Positions 2,712 through 33,507 of a stretch of 33,507 nucleotides of DNA are shown here, piece after piece. Positions within the stretch are counted from its first letter, which is position 1. Each line of letters begins with the position of its first letter. The position numbers and the translations under genes were made by a program. The stretch is taken from the IMG/VR virus record IMGVR_UViG_3300042450_000021, positions 1 to 33,507 of that record; one strand, given 5' to 3'. This DNA is from a virus. The notes beneath the pieces were generated by a model. The model was not told the DNA's origin and searched no databases. It worked only from the letters and a program-made list of their open reading frames with translations.

Positions 2712-3011
2712 CTATTTTATCCATAAACCTCGCTTTTTTAGTTCAATTAGGGTTTTCATATATGCGTTTTCCCACATGGTCTGTCTTTCTTCTTTTGATA
2801 AACACATTCCTTGGTCTAATTGGGCGTGGCATGGGTAGCACAAAGCCGCAGTGTATTCGTCAGAAGCCTTGATGCCCCGACCCTTGCCGTGTTTAGCCCA
2901 GTTGCTATGAGCCGCCTGCGTCTGACCCTCCATGCCGCAATGTTGGCAAGGCAAGTCAGCCACATTTTGTAGGTGCTTTTTGCTTCTGTAATAGTTAAAT
3001 TTAGGAATCAT
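2712..3011 (-). CDS. HNH-type endonuclease (99 aa)
   Basis: Zinc knuckles CQHC at 22-25 and CYPCH at 58-62 flank AAH (His35), an HNH-like arrangement. The layout resembles small phage nucleases near the nin region, such as Ref/DUF1364-type proteins, but the exact family is not certain. It probably nicks or cuts DNA during recombination or packaging, which is inference. The start overlaps the stop of the upstream PD-(D/E)XK gene by about 11 bases. It is the last gene of the leftward early operon. Confidence 0.75.
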   Translation of the reverse strand: MIPKFNYYRSKKHLQNVADLPCQHCGMEGQTQAAHSNWAKHGKGRGIKASDEYTAALCYPCHAQLDQGMCLSKEERQTMWENAYMKTLIELKKRGLWIK

Positions 3012-3366: not shown

Positions 3367-3763
3367 ATATCACCCCGTTTTCTGCACCCCAAGCGTGTAG
3401 CCATTCCACAAACTCTGAGGCTTGCTCTTTTGTAAATTTTCTTGTTTGTTGCCCAAGTTGGACAATTCCATCGCCAGACAAATTAGGAATAATTGCACCT
3501 GTTTTTATGCCGCTGTCCCTGCAAAACTGGTCAACTAATAAACGTTTCCAAGATTCTGCATCCCATTTCGAGCCTAAGTGCTGTGCCTGCTTAGATATTT
3601 CATTAATCATGGCGTGGTATTTTTCCTCTTGTTCACGGCTTTTATCTGCATCTTTAATTTCCATGCTAAGTTGCTTGCCAGCCTGTAACGCTTGAATGAC
3701 TTTAGGCCATAACCCCGTCATCAATGCTTTAGCCTGACTTTCGTTCAATAGTTGAAACTTCAT
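3350..3763 (-). CDS. ninB: NinB-family recombination protein (137 aa)
   Basis: Recognisable as NinB (lambda Orf): the KSREQEEKYHAMINEISKQ core, then SWKRLLVDQF, a QLGQQTRKFTKEQ stretch and AENGV near the end. Length is close to the 146 residues of lambda Orf. Orf binds SSB-coated DNA and helps load recombinases in place of RecFOR. Here it is next to RusA, as in lambdoid nin regions, and the phage also has ERF and an exonuclease. The start ATG at 3763 overlaps the rusA stop (ATGA). Confidence 0.9.
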   Translation of the reverse strand: MKFQLLNESQAKALMTGLWPKVIQALQAGKQLSMEIKDADKSREQEEKYHAMINEISKQAQHLGSKWDAESWKRLLVDQFCRDSGIKTGAIIPNLSGDGIVQLGQQTRKFTKEQASEFVEWLHAWGAENGVIYEANA

Positions 3764-4176
3764 CGCTCTTGCACCATTACATTTGCACCAGCAATTTCGT
3801 GATAGACCTTTGTGATTCGCGCTTCTACGATTTGGCTGTCATCAACATAAACAATTCCATTCATTGCGTCTGTAATGCTTTTATAAACGTTATCAATGTC
3901 TATGCGTTTGGGAAACTCCAAACCCGATAAACAGGCTTCCTTGCGTTTTTTAGAATATGAGGCGGGTACTGCATACCGAAGGTATAAAAAGACTGTTATA
4001 GCCCCTTTTAATGGCTCTGATGAGCCTATTGCTTGTCTGGCTTTCATTGCTACATGGGTTTCGTAGTCGATTGTCTTGGCATCGGTGTAAGTTTGGACAA
4101 ACTGACCCCTACGGGCAAAGCGTGGTCTGCTCTTGGGCACAGGATTTCCATCAACTGTGAATGTCACTATTAGCAT
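3760..4176 (-). CDS. rusA: RusA-family Holliday junction resolvase (138 aa)
   Basis: The opening GNPVPKSRPRFAR and the acidic core IDIDNVYKSITDAMNGI, then YVDDSQIV, match RusA, a dimeric metal-dependent nuclease that resolves four-way junctions. The Asp residues in IDIDN and VDDSQ are the expected metal ligands. Length is typical (about 120-140). I chose ATG 4176; a GTG one codon upstream is possible. Adjacent ninB supports a recombination cluster. Confidence 0.92.
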   Translation of the reverse strand: MLIVTFTVDGNPVPKSRPRFARRGQFVQTYTDAKTIDYETHVAMKARQAIGSSEPLKGAITVFLYLRYAVPASYSKKRKEACLSGLEFPKRIDIDNVYKSITDAMNGIVYVDDSQIVEARITKVYHEIAGANVMVQER

Positions 4177-4421
4177 CACGCAGTTCTTTCAATCGTTGGA
4201 CAATTAAGGTATGCAGAATAGGAAAATCTGACTTTAGGGCTTTGGTCATGTATCTGGCGTGGTCGATAGTTGTTGGGTTCATTGCCATCAGCGAATAGTG
4301 ATTTGCCAGATGCTCCACAAAGGTCACCTGTCCGTTGTAGGGCTTGAGTTGCGATAGCCAAGGACACGGGGTAGCCTTCTCTGATTCGGTCGAGGTGGGC
4401 ATGGGCTTCAGTTTTGTTCAC
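4151..4421 (-). CDS. Small hypothetical protein, possibly frameshifted (two overlapping frames)
   Basis: Two frames overlap here. Frame A (GTG 4421 to 4176) starts MNKTEAHAHLDRIREGYPVS and runs to QRTGDL, which resembles N-termini of small phage proteins. Its C-terminal half looks non-coding. Frame B (ATG 4402 to 4151) has an unconvincing N-terminus but a protein-like C-terminal half: FVEHLANHYSLMAMNPT, then LHTLIVQRLKELRD. A single +1 change near the GACCTTTGTG stretch would join the good half of each. The GTG start has GGAG upstream; frame B has no ribosome site. The function is unknown. It could be one frameshifted gene, two overlapping genes or a sequencing indel. Confidence 0.5.
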
Positions 4422-5349
4422 TTAGGATTCTCCATGCGGTTGCGGCACACAATGGGACTTGTCCATTTCCAATGGCTTTAAGTCTGTCCATCCTAGCGGC
4501 CACCCCATCAGCCACTCTACCCACGTTGGGTTCAATTGCCCACTGGTTGGATGTACCGATTGACTTAACATAATCTGCTTGCCTTTCGCAATCCTTCGTT
4601 GAATTGATGGGTTGCTCATGTTGCCCCTGTCCCTGTTGTCCGAGGCTTGTGGAGTTGGAAATTTCGCCGCATACGATTGAAGCGTTCTCCCTGACTGAGA
4701 TTTGGCTTTCGGGTCGTAATCCTTGGTGGGGCCTCTCTGACTTGCATCTGGTGTCGGTAAAAGTTTCTTCTTCAAGGCTTTGCGGCTGTTGCTTCCCCCA
4801 TCCAAACCCGTTGTGCATGGAGTGTGAAATTTGTCTATTCCGTTTGGCGAAAATCCATATTCTGTCCCTCTGATGGTTTGCTCCAATGTTCGCCGCTCCC
4901 AGCACTCCCCATCTCGCATCAAACCCCATTGCGGCCAAGTCTCCGAGAACTCTTCCAAGTCCCCTAGAAGTGAGCATTGGTGAGTTTTCCACAAAGACGA
5001 ATCTTGGTCGTACTTCGTGAATGATGCGTGCCATTTCTCCCCACATTCCGCTTCGCTCTCCATCAATTCCTGCGCCTTTTCCAGCGGCTGAAATGTCTTG
5101 GCATGGAAACCCACCAGATACAACGTCAACAATTCCTCGCCATGGGTGTCCGTCAAAGGTTTGTACGTCATCCCAAATCGGGAAAGGCGGGAGAAGTCCG
5201 TCATTTTGCCTGGCGCACAGTACGCTTGCGGGATACGCTTCCCACTCGACTGCACAGACTGTTCGCCATCCAAGGAGATGTCCCCCAAGTATTCCTCCAC
5301 CTGCTCCTGCAAAGAGAGCGAGTTCATTAAGGCTTTGCTGATTAACCAT
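4408..5349 (-). CDS. dcm-like: DNA cytosine-C5 methyltransferase (313 aa)
   Basis: All core m5C motifs are present. Motif I is LALFAGAGGG at about 10-19, motif IV GGFPCQ has catalytic Cys83, motif VI is ENS at 121-123, motif VIII QRDR is at 160-163, and motif X AIGNGQVP is at about 292-299. The target-recognition region lies between about 170 and 270. It methylates cytosine to 5-methylcytosine using SAM, probably as anti-restriction. The ATG at 5349 overlaps the stop of the HNH gene upstream. The natural N-terminus NELALFAGAG is preceded by MVNQQSL, which looks like a replacement start created by the HNH insertion. A second frame is fully open across the same DNA. Confidence 0.94.
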   Translation of the reverse strand: MVNQQSLNELALFAGAGGGILGGHLLGWRTVCAVEWEAYPASVLCARQNDGLLPPFPIWDDVQTFDGHPWRGIVDVVSGGFPCQDISAAGKGAGIDGERSGMWGEMARIIHEVRPRFVFVENSPMLTSRGLGRVLGDLAAMGFDARWGVLGAANIGANHQRDRIWIFAKRNRQISHSMHNGFGWGKQQPQSLEEETFTDTRCKSERPHQGLRPESQISVRENASIVCGEISNSTSLGQQGQGQHEQPINSTKDCERQADYVKSIGTSNQWAIEPNVGRVADGVAARMDRLKAIGNGQVPLCAATAWRILSEQN

Positions 5350-5354
5350 GACAT
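4422..5354 (-). CDS. Overlapping 310-codon open frame inside the m5C methyltransferase gene
   Basis: Same strand, different frame, open for 310 codons across nearly the whole methyltransferase. The product has FSRLSRFGM, SETWPQWGLMRDG, two LPTP/FPTP..AS.. segments and a C-terminal WVEWLMGWP. I recall similar sequences listed as phage proteins, but they may be alternative-frame translations of related methyltransferase genes. Candidate starts are ATG 5354 (MSWLISKALMNSL) and ATG 5327 (MNSLSLQEQ). Whether it is translated is unknown. A stop-free frame this long at moderate base composition is unusual. The methyltransferase frame is certain, so this entry is the doubtful one. Confidence 0.35.
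   Translation of the reverse strand: MSWLISKALMNSLSLQEQVEEYLGDISLDGEQSVQSSGKRIPQAYCAPGKMTDFSRLSRFGMTYKPLTDTHGEELLTLYLVGFHAKTFQPLEKAQELMESEAECGEKWHASFTKYDQDSSLWKTHQCSLLGDLEEFSETWPQWGLMRDGECWERRTLEQTIRGTEYGFSPNGIDKFHTPCTTGLDGGSNSRKALKKKLLPTPDASQRGPTKDYDPKAKSQSGRTLQSYAAKFPTPQASDNRDRGNMSNPSIQRRIAKGKQIMLSQSVHPTSGQLNPTWVEWLMGWPLGWTDLKPLEMDKSHCVPQPHGES
5299..5328 (-). repeat. Recoded duplicate of methyltransferase codons, copy 2
   Basis: Thirty bases encoding NELALFAGAG at the methyltransferase start. They match copy 1 at 5717-5746 at 10 of 10 residues but about 23 of 30 bases; every difference is synonymous. Confidence 0.85.
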
Positions 5355-5749
5355 TCCAAATATCCTATTAAATTTTTGAATAACTCTTTGTTGTCAATGC
5401 AAAGACCTAAAACTGTATTACACCTATTGCAAAGAATTCCTCTTACATTTCCTGTTGCATGGCAATGGTCAACATGAGGAGTGTTTTGTTTATCAGTCCA
5501 CTCCAATGGTTTTTTACAAGTTGCACAAGATTGATTTTGTGCCTCAAATTGCTTATCAAACCAATCAAAAGCGACACCATATTTCCTAACAATTTCCTGT
5601 TTATGATTTTTGCTTCTGTTCGTTTTGCGATAGGCAGCCACACGACCAGGATTAGCTAAACGCCATGCTTTAGCTTTTGCTCTCATGTACTCTGAAGATT
5701 TGTATTGCTTGGTCATACCAGCGCCTGCGAAAAGAGCCAACTCATTCAT
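5342..5749 (-). CDS. HNH endonuclease VII-type protein fused to captured methyltransferase N-terminus (135 aa)
   Basis: Residues 75-120 form a recombination endonuclease VII-type HNH: CATC, then HVDHCHATG with DHCH at 94-97, then CNRC. The first 11 residues, MNELALFAGAG, are those expected at the start of the downstream m5C methyltransferase and match its residues 8-17 exactly. The nuclease body begins at MTKQYKSSEY (ATG 5716). The start ATG 5749 overlaps the stop of the upstream gene (ATGA) behind a GAGGGG site, so the nuclease appears to have taken over the methyltransferase's original initiation signals. Free-standing phage HNH genes of this type are often mobile homing-type elements. Confidence 0.85.
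   Translation of the reverse strand: MNELALFAGAGMTKQYKSSEYMRAKAKAWRLANPGRVAAYRKTNRSKNHKQEIVRKYGVAFDWFDKQFEAQNQSCATCKKPLEWTDKQNTPHVDHCHATGNVRGILCNRCNTVLGLCIDNKELFKNLIGYLECHG
5717..5746 (-). repeat. Recoded duplicate of methyltransferase codons, copy 1
   Basis: Thirty bases encoding NELALFAGAG at the start of the HNH gene, in frame with it. Synonymously different from copy 2 at 5299-5328, so this is not a simple fresh target-site duplication. Confidence 0.85.
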
Positions 5750-6102
5750 TTTCCCCTCAACTTTGTTATGTAATCTCTGAAAAATGCAGGCATAGGGGCG
5801 ACATTCCTTGAATCTTCCTCAATTTTTAACAAAGCAGGGTCTCTAAAATTAACATTGACATTGACTGTCATATCAGGCACTTCAGCCCCATCCCAGCGCA
5901 TTTGATTGATGTATACCAAAGGAGCGGGAATAAACGCCCCAGCGCCTTTTTTCCATTGGTCGGTGGTTTTCATCCATTCAACGTGTTTTATTATTTGGTC
6001 AGCTTGTAAGTCTAGTTTTAACTTATCCCATTTGGCTCTACATTGGGCTTTGCCGCCCTTTCTTACATTACTAGGCCATGTCTTCCAGAAGTCTTCAAAC
6101 AT
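5746..6102 (-). CDS. Replication-protein-like, helicase-loader-type C-terminal domain only (118 aa)
   Basis: The FWKTWP opening, a KGGKAQCRAKW segment, then GAFIPAPLVYINQMRWDG match the C-terminal module of phage replication proteins related to lambda O and DnaT-like loaders. In those, this module recruits the host helicase and its loader. The usual N-terminal origin-binding HTH domain is absent. The ATG at 6102 has AAGGAGAG upstream and the start of the module is complete, so it looks like a stand-alone domain rather than a broken gene. No helicase or primase is seen elsewhere, which suggests reliance on host replication. Confidence 0.72.
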   Translation of the reverse strand: MFEDFWKTWPSNVRKGGKAQCRAKWDKLKLDLQADQIIKHVEWMKTTDQWKKGAGAFIPAPLVYINQMRWDGAEVPDMTVNVNVNFRDPALLKIEEDSRNVAPMPAFFRDYITKLRGK

Positions 6103-7352: not shown

Positions 7353-7937
7353 ATGAAAGTTTATCAAGCAATTAACGCGGTACAGGCTGAATTAGCCCGT
7401 ACAGGCATCTCAAAAACTCAAACCAATACCCAAGGCGCAGGCTACAAGTTTAGGGGCATTGACAATGTGTTTAATGCCATTTCACCCGTATTGGCATCTC
7501 ATGGGCTTTGCATCCTTCCAAGAATGTTGACCAGAACTTGTGTTGAACGACTTTCCAACAAAGGCGGCAACCTTTTTTATGTAACAGTAGAAGCAGAGTT
7601 TGACTTTGTATCCGCTGAAGATGGCTCTAAACACACAGTTAAAACTTTTGGCGAAGCAATGGACTCTGGCGATAAGGCTACCAATAAGGCTATGTCAGCC
7701 GCTTATAAATATGCCGCCTTGCAAGCCTTTGCTATTCCAACAGAAGGAGATAACGACACCGAAAACCAAACACATGAGGTGTTACCCATAGAAAAAGTAC
7801 CTTTAGCCCCACATCGTTTGGAAGGTGCTATTAAGCAAATAAAGGCTGGAAACTACACCATTGAAACTTTGCGTGGAACTTTTATATTGACCCCAGAACA
7901 AGATATTGAACTTATAAAGGCGTTATCCAATGCTTAA
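7353..7937 (+). CDS. erf: ERF-family single-strand annealing protein (194 aa)
   Basis: The N-terminal and central region matches ERF: YKFRGIDNVFNAISPVLASH, then GEAMDSGDKATNKAMSAAYK and YAALQAFAIP. ERF proteins bind single-stranded DNA as rings and anneal complementary strands, serving phage genome recombination or circularisation. The last 50 or so residues form a separate small domain. The exonuclease gene overlaps its end by eight bases, making the usual annealase-exonuclease pair. Confidence 0.95.
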   Translation: MKVYQAINAVQAELARTGISKTQTNTQGAGYKFRGIDNVFNAISPVLASHGLCILPRMLTRTCVERLSNKGGNLFYVTVEAEFDFVSAEDGSKHTVKTFGEAMDSGDKATNKAMSAAYKYAALQAFAIPTEGDNDTENQTHEVLPIEKVPLAPHRLEGAIKQIKAGNYTIETLRGTFILTPEQDIELIKALSNA

Positions 7938-8559
7938 ATTCCGCCCACACATGATTGGTGAAATTATGACCGACCCCAAAGGAAAAGACGAAGTTCTGTC
8001 CGTAGGGGCTAAGACCACCATCACCAAAATGGCTAAAGAGTTTGTTTACGGCTTTGACGAAAAGATAACCAACAAATACATGACTAAAGGGCTTGAGATG
8101 GAAGACAAGTCTATTGAGTTGCTCAATTCGGTTTTGTTTACGTCTTACAAGAAAAACGAAGAAACCCTTGAAAACGATTGGCTTAGAGGCACTCCAGACT
8201 TGATTTGCAAGGACAGCGTTATAGACATTAAAACATCTTGGTCTTTAGCTACCTTCCCTTGTCTGTCTGAATTGGGCAAAGATAAGGGCTATGAATGGCA
8301 GGGCAGGGCATACATGATGTTGACCAATCTTGATAAGTTTGAAATCTGCTATTGCCTAGTAAGCACTCCAGAAAACCTAATCGGGTATGAAGATAAAACG
8401 TTGCATCTGGTTGACCACATTAACCCCGAACTAAGGATTACCCGCGTTTTATATGAGCGCGACAAGACTTTAGAAAACAAAATCAAACTCAAAGTAGAGG
8501 CCGCGAGAGAGTACTACCAAGAGGTTATCAACCAAATCTCCGCAGAACACATTTTTTGA
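7930..8559 (+). CDS. YqaJ/lambda-exo-type recombination exonuclease (209 aa)
   Basis: The PD-(D/E)XK core is visible: Glu56 in GLEMED, GTPD with Asp90, and IDIKTS with Asp99 and Lys101. WQGRAYM near residue 125 supplies the following helix with Gln. These are the catalytic residues of YqaJ/lambda-exonuclease enzymes, which resect one strand of double-stranded ends and hand it to the annealase. The overlap with erf supports that partnership. The start at 7930 could be replaced by the internal ATG at residue 8. Confidence 0.92.
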   Translation: MLKFRPHMIGEIMTDPKGKDEVLSVGAKTTITKMAKEFVYGFDEKITNKYMTKGLEMEDKSIELLNSVLFTSYKKNEETLENDWLRGTPDLICKDSVIDIKTSWSLATFPCLSELGKDKGYEWQGRAYMMLTNLDKFEICYCLVSTPENLIGYEDKTLHLVDHINPELRITRVLYERDKTLENKIKLKVEAAREYYQEVINQISAEHIF

Positions 8560-33204: not shown

Positions 33205-33507
33205 TTAAGCAGTTTCGGTTACTTCTGTCAACAATACGGCTTTCTTTCCTGTAAAGTCTTCCCACCGCTTTACTATTACATCGCAATACTTGGGGTCTAG
33301 CTCCATCAATCTGGCATAGCGACCATGTTTTTCTGCTGCCAACATGGTTGTACCGCTTCCACCAAACGAATCCAACACAATATCACCGCCTTTGGTGTTA
33401 TTAAGCATTTGGTATTCAAATAGCGCAACAGGCTTCATAGTTGGGTGTTCACCACTTCTACTAGGTTTGTCAAACTCTAGGATAGTGGTTTGCTTGCGGT
33501 CGGTAGC
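33205..33507 (-). CDS. ParB-fused DNA methyltransferase, C-terminal part (runs off window end)
   Basis: One hundred codons to the stop, with GEHPTMKP at about 19-26, the SAM-binding motif I DSFGGSGTT at 46-54, and ELDPKYCDVIVKRWE. In beta-class enzymes this motif comes after DPPY, and DPPY is in the piece at 1-874. The two pieces lie on the same strand and fit a single enzyme of about 400 residues with roughly nine codons missing. The downstream neighbour is the terminase small subunit. Confidence 0.92.
   Translation of the reverse strand, partial: ATDRKQTTILEFDKPSRSGEHPTMKPVALFEYQMLNNTKGGDIVLDSFGGSGTTMLAAEKHGRYARLMELDPKYCDVIVKRWEDFTGKKAVLLTEVTETA

Follow-up and report, generated by a model that had tools for sequence, protein, structure and literature searches.

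Free-standing endonucleases that home into a conserved gene and swap one of its ends for a resistance-conferring allele are known from Torulaspora and Lachancea yeasts, in which WHO elements exchange the 3' end of FBA1 and the old end stays behind as a displaced fragment that provides homology, the host gene remaining functional without splicing; allelic resistance has been described for these elements and cleavage has been shown (Coughlan et al. 2020, PMC7282813). The element that we describe here lies in a 33,507-nucleotide stretch of viral DNA (the whole of the sequence analysed, positions 1 to 33,507 of IMG/VR record IMGVR_UViG_3300042450_000021, hereafter the window) and appears to follow the same plan, since one end of a host gene has been replaced and a fragment of the old end displaced. 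It is the 5' end that is exchanged, however, in mirror image of the yeast elements, and the replacement is about 24-27 bp long, heavily recoded, and duplicated for two frames. The nucleases also differ, that of WHO elements being intein-derived (HO/VDE-like, with a zinc finger) whereas that of the phage is of the Endo VII type (Endonuclease_7), and cleavage is something we infer for the phage element. The phage element would thus work like a WHO element, but it is not one.

Among phages, the family precedent is F-CphI of cyanophage S-PM2, a free-standing homing endonuclease of the DHHRN family (PMC6083498), which has the same D, H, H, R and N residues and zinc cysteines, is likewise phage-encoded, and adjoins its target gene; whereas its donor is protected by a group I intron in psbA, the element described here would use a recoded exon and no intron. 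Intronless homing by SegF of T4 is similar in that a free-standing phage nuclease acts from a donor made resistant by sequence difference, with co-conversion of the neighbour, but in T4 the intergenic nuclease gene and its cut site are described as lying hundreds to thousands of bp apart (PMC2988022), whereas in our phage the nuclease gene sits at the presumed cut, within the target gene, and a displaced fragment accompanies a minimal replacement. In phage Aeh1, mobE is also a free-standing nuclease gene inserted in a conserved gene, nrdA, which is left as two reassembling pieces (PMC2988022), whereas the element in the window resupplies the missing piece. As outlined in PMC7951863, synthetic Cleave-and-Rescue couples a nuclease to a copy of its target gene that has been recoded to resist cleavage; that system is an engineered gene drive, whereas the phage element is natural and would spread by homing. 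We found no description of the element itself in the open-access papers searched.

The nuclease gene and its neighbours

The minus strand of the window carries, in order, a replication initiation/primosomal-like gene (5746..6102; phrog_9474, E 3.7e-13), an HNH nuclease gene (5342..5749), and a gene for an m5C DNA methyltransferase (MT; 4408..5349; PF00145, DNA_methylase, E 1.7e-30; phrog_363, E 9.3e-68). The initial annotation, made from the sequence alone, had noted that the HNH protein opens with MNELALFAGAG and then continues as an Endonuclease VII-type protein, which was confirmed (MNELALFAGAG-MTKQYKSS...; Pfam Endonuclease_7, PF02945, E 5.9e-20), as was its observation that the MT starts seven residues ahead of the same NELALFAGAG (MVNQQSL-NELALFAGAGGGILGG). 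The two 30-base blocks encoding these ten residues, at 5746-5717 and 5328-5299, had been said to differ at about 7 synonymous positions, and they differ at exactly 7, 7/7 synonymous in the MT frame. The predicted ATGA coupling is also real, with the TGA of the upstream gene at 5748-5746 overlapping an ATG at 5749-5747. This ATG and the first NELALFAGAG block (5717..5749, minus strand) constitute a native MT 5' fragment broken off by the nuclease, which we refer to as the stub and which is in frame with HNH here. A scan of the window with the native 29-mer, allowing up to 3 mismatches, found the stub as its one match (0.00 expected by chance) and the native block nowhere else. The HNH start conserved among relatives is not the stub ATG but an internal ATG at 5716-5714.

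By sequence, the closest solved relative of the HNH protein is T4 Endo VII (E 5.4e-5). In nine representative HNH sequences the DHHRN catalytic residues D94, H95, H97, R103 and N111 and the zinc cysteines C75, C78, C107 and C110 were invariant, giving the arrangement of the Endo VII-type motif (zinc-binding CX2-4C and CX2C flanking DHxH, plus R and N). The YLECHG tail was also invariant among nine representative relatives, because the segment 5342..5354 (minus strand) is used in all three frames, encoding the end of HNH (CHG-stop), the start of an overlapping ORF described below (MSW..), and the start of the MT (MV..). It is unlikely that the protein acts as a Holliday-junction resolvase, because the phage already encodes RusA (3760..4179, minus strand; PF05866, E 4.1e-32). 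A second small HNH protein, unrelated to the first (DUF968 / RecA-dependent nuclease-like), is encoded near NinB and RusA at 2712-3011 (minus strand), and near the contig end there is a 77-aa ORF for an N6/N4-type DNA methylase (33205-33438, minus strand) resembling the C-terminal part of a longer gene.

Scans of IMG/VR for relatives of the nuclease retrieved 18 with the whole-protein query, one being a short, marginal match without an MT; an alignment used as query retrieved 96, and 80 of these were kept. All 36 retrieved relatives that were at least 51% identical lay directly upstream of this MT (36/36), and in nearly every one the end of the nuclease overlapped the MT start. In 21 more distant relatives that were checked (≤44% identity, and one 53% partial match) no MT match was found nearby, and we saw no Endo VII gene outside this locus with MNELALFAGAG, an occurrence that the initial annotation had listed as evidence against its reading. 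Genome contigs yielded a single distant match (36%), in a Lokiarchaeota MAG, and all nuclease-bearing copies come from metagenomic contigs. The same-site elements L096-L098 and L178 have a nuclease with an extra N-terminal CxxC zinc-finger-like region.

Empty and occupied sites

The initial annotation had proposed that a mobile nuclease was inserted after about codon 11 of the MT and the displaced gene rebuilt from another allele, and had suggested alignment with related phages lacking HNH. Such empty relatives exist, and they support the proposal. The left flank of empty L073 matches that of occupied L096/L097 at 96-100% nearest the junction, that of L062 matches L082 at 97% over 322 bp, that of L223 matches L086 at 89%, and that of L044 matches the window at 83% over 358 bp. 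In each pair the shared flank reaches the junction, and all four of these empty relatives read on from it through the insertion point as an uninterrupted NELALFAGAGGGILGG. The nuclease gene is therefore optional and at a fixed site that is empty in close genomes, and nuclease-bearing alleles differ from empty ones at the target, as is found for free-standing homing elements.

A stub was present upstream of the nuclease in 26 elements, always broken after about codon 8-10, and the left flanks of these 26 fell into 21 unrelated clusters (clustering at 70% identity). In three pairs the stub was identical (30/30) to the start in its own empty relative (L082-L062, L084-L024 and L086-L223), and a GCG/GCA difference between the first two pairs was mirrored in their stubs; the window stub matched its empty relative L044 at 27/30. 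Since the stub follows the local empty allele, we place the left crossover at the stub, where the homology on offer is short (about 23-30 bp). In L353, L354 and L096-L098 the stub was out of frame or stopped and the nuclease began at a start codon of its own; the fusion of stub and HNH in the window is therefore not essential. Five or six elements had no recognisable stub (L022/L090, L055, L101 and L344, with that of L348 possibly lost at a contig end), and hence not all copies arose via the same left junction.

At the MT start itself, the split between native and nuclease-linked alleles was perfect. Within this MT subfamily we found 149 distinct native alleles, with neither the nuclease (0/149) nor the prefix preceding NELALFAGAG (0/149) and with a YTG codon at position 3 (GAG YTG in 145 tabulated), whereas the nuclease-linked MT alleles were recoded in 20 of 20 cases (GAA CTY). 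This agrees with the earlier suggestion that through recoding the site may escape the nuclease, although resistance itself is what we infer from the split. Another 55 distinct alleles were recoded and had the prefix with no nuclease, and the upstream genes comprised 33 distinct ORFs with no obvious nuclease among them, as judged by eye; the lone recoded allele lacking both prefix and nuclease was in a truncated contig (L135). The 5' duplication to which, as described below, the prefix belongs can therefore exist without the nuclease, and these HNH-less alleles may be sources, escapees or former hosts of it. The initial annotation had regarded MVNQQSL-like prefixes in phages lacking HNH as contradicting insertion; they do literally occur, in the 55 alleles, but the insertion stands, and what these alleles carry is the same recoded duplication without an adjacent nuclease.

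To the right, nuclease-linked and native MTs, compared codon by codon, showed fixed differences in codons 2-9 only, and from codon 10 onward the two formed a single mixed pool. On a tree of the MT body the 18 nuclease-linked genes needed 18 changes (mean 17.4 for shuffled labels) and a single clade for them was rejected (AU p 1.6e-40). These results bear on the possibility that the prefix-bearing MT is a separate natural lineage, with the nuclease as a passenger or resolvase and recombination at a hot spot accounting for the rest. While the 55 HNH-less alleles with their 33 upstream ORFs are what such a lineage would look like, the MT bodies of the recoded class do not group as one lineage on the tree (39 changes, where shuffled labels gave 55, range 47-62; AU p 1.9e-5 against a single clade), the 26 stub-bearing elements retain a native fragment broken at one point, the close relatives of the nuclease are all at a single site, and a resolvase, RusA, is already present in the phage, which together make this explanation an unlikely one.

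Two reading frames at the methyltransferase start

The initial annotation missed a 310-aa ORF (4422..5354, minus strand; phrog_1008, E 2.2e-30) that spans nearly all of the MT in its +1 frame. Of 199 complete relatives, 192 keep this frame open along at least 80% of the MT, the highly variable C-terminal region included, and none (0/199) does so in the +2 frame. When MT codons were shuffled synonymously 5.4 stops per gene were expected in the +1 frame, and 173 of 186 genes had none; for the window, there were 0 against 6.0 expected (minimum 3). This second frame is thus open beyond chance across many diverged sequences, as in an overlapping gene. The C-terminus of the encoded protein is conserved (LNPTWVEWLMGWPLGWTDLKPL). 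In three loci (L097, L115 and L276) the overlapping frame stops early, and in L097 the MT frame finishes with the C-terminal motif of the overlapping protein, as by a frameshift within the overlap or a sequencing error. Among isolated phages, the overlap also occurs in those of Acinetobacter, Vibrio, Salmonella, Klebsiella and Pseudomonas; public annotation gives the MT alone in Acinetobacter phage ABMM1 (L319, 54972-55886), where the native 30-bp block is identical, and the overlapping ORF alone in Pseudomonas phage phPA-G (L320, 23175-23903).

It could be that the +1 frame is not a gene, and that its openness and the prefix have some other cause, such as MT codon usage or an RNA signal. The ORF had no match in Pfam or NCBIfam, AlphaFold2 predicted a low-confidence fold (mean pLDDT 53), and the third MT codon position is the most variable; but a frame free of stops in 192 of 199 relatives where shuffling predicts 5.4, a conserved C-terminal motif, membership in a PHROG family, and a duplicated copy (copy A, below) that retains precisely the N-terminus of this ORF despite very different nucleotides make a non-coding frame distinctly improbable. 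Judged by its sequence conservation, the overlapping ORF is likely a real but mostly unannotated gene, present at about 190 loci. We found no description of an overlap of a phage cytosine methyltransferase in the open-access papers searched.

In native alleles the start ATGAATGAGTTGGCTCTTTTCGCAGGCGCTGG is read as MNELALFAGA.. in the MT frame and MSWLFSQAL.. in the overlapping frame, and the block at the MT start (ATGAATGAGTTGGCTCTTTTCGCAGGCGCTGGTGGAGG) is severely constrained. There are 294,912 MT-synonymous versions of the ten-residue block, and 2 encode both peptides; these differ at TTG/CTG alone, a variation also present among natives, and the other common native variants alter the second frame conservatively (F/Y, Q/R, A/V). 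As the native 30-bp start is dual-coding, it cannot be rewritten synonymously, and the element carries the start twice. In the window and its kin the recoded alleles have a 27-bp tandem duplication of the start, comprising copy A (5329..5355, minus strand), which keeps the overlapping frame, and copy B (5302..5328, minus strand), which encodes NELALFAGA and keeps the MT frame. Over 17 nuclease-linked alleles, copy A retained 7.24/9 residues in the overlapping frame and 1.0/9 in the MT frame (13.2/27 nucleotides), and copy B 9.0/9 in the MT frame and 2.8/9 in the overlapping frame (20/27 nucleotides). The window copy A encodes MSWLISKAL, against the native MSWLFSQAL, and when read in the MT frame it makes up most of the MVNQQSL prefix. 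The initial annotation took MVNQQSL for a new start and did not see that these seven residues belong to a recoded duplicate of that 5' end read in the other frame; the overlapping gene explains why there is a prefix at all and why the block is not free to change by mutation alone. Copy B of L096 is identical to that of the window (27/27), yet the nuclease genes are just 68% identical.

In more distant elements (the form is seen in L335, L344-L354, L356, L027 and L054) the duplication is 39 bp long and its copy A spans 13 codons (MSWLISRALMEDY vs MSWLFSQALVEEY). This form is possibly of independent origin, and with two duplication forms the disentangling may have arisen at least twice. On the evidence of the alleles, duplication is the escape route that recoded alleles actually show. 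Resistance, and the rescue provided by the element, were probably reached only by duplicating the segment shared by two proteins, each copy keeping one frame, in a natural disentangling of overlapping genes.

The HNH-less prefix alleles (e.g., MNELVNQSSL in L048) were also considered as scars left by microhomology deletion of the nuclease, a reading that we dropped because the overlapping frame makes the prefix a functional recoded copy (MSWLISQAL) in 55 distinct alleles; nuclease loss may still account for some of them. The nuclease of L054 / L355, which precedes an intact, open recoded MT, has decayed, with an in-frame stop and its catalytic D replaced by N, and would represent a degenerate stage of the homing cycle.

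Probable homing with a recoded 5' end

An m5C MT adjoining and overlapping a beta-beta-alpha-metal nuclease invites the interpretation that the two are a co-translated restriction-modification pair, and HNH is weakly similar to the restriction enzyme Hpy99I and to a REase_II model of PADLOC. Such a pair would be expected to share a specificity, but nuclease and MT specificity are unlinked here, which sets the locus apart from type II systems: several nucleases are near-identical (WIN, L082, L084, L085 and L086, 96-99% mutually), and nucleases 98-99% identical stand beside MTs whose specificity regions, where comparable, are just 40-48% identical. Moreover, most MTs of the family have no nuclease, and nuclease linkage tracks the 5' end of the MT rather than its specificity region, so that we regard a restriction-modification pair as very improbable. 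A dormant group I intron or intein with the stub spliced to the downstream MT, which the initial annotation had also raised, can be dismissed almost entirely, since, although removing the element at its boundaries restores the native junction, there was no Rfam match across the region at E up to 1, the downstream MT is complete with its own start, and the stub is out of frame or stopped in several relatives.

We consider it highly probable that the locus is instead a free-standing homing element that destroys its host gene's 5' end and puts another in its place, with a rescue for both frames built in. Comparison of the sequences establishes its mobility among genomes, the single insertion point, a left boundary at the stub and a right boundary at about codon 10, and the recoding of both frames. 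Judging from the insertion point, the Endo VII-type nuclease would cut the native MT start near codons 8-10 in a co-infecting phage. Repair off the element-bearing genome would start on the left from the first codons of the recipient itself, which become the stub, and return on the right to the recipient MT at about codon 10, so that the nuclease and the recoded 5' end are inserted in between. For this the phage could draw on its own Erf single-strand annealing recombinase (7353..7937, plus strand; PF04404, E 3.6e-23), a candidate for short-homology repair, a RecE-like recombination exonuclease (7930..8559, plus strand; phrog_5715, E 2.6e-63), a candidate for end resection, and NinB and RusA, which are also present in the window phage, the stub and the MT body providing the homology. 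Copy A would supply the N-terminus of the overlapping protein and copy B that of the MT, and both would presumably escape cutting, being different enough from the target. The stub would provide a short stretch of homology for a further round, and it also happens, in the window phage, to give the nuclease its ribosome site and start codon. A dual-coding block would make an ideal target for such a nuclease, because synonymous escape is nearly closed.

If this is correct, phages would possess a natural equivalent of the engineered cleave-and-rescue drives, and the strategy of the yeast WHO elements would have been invented independently, by a selfish nuclease that aims at a sequence its victims can hardly mutate because two frames constrain it. 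The locus would also be a rare clean case of overlapping genes pulled apart at one end, and it reveals what is likely a conserved gene, for the most part not annotated, that overlaps the genes of a family of phage cytosine methyltransferases.
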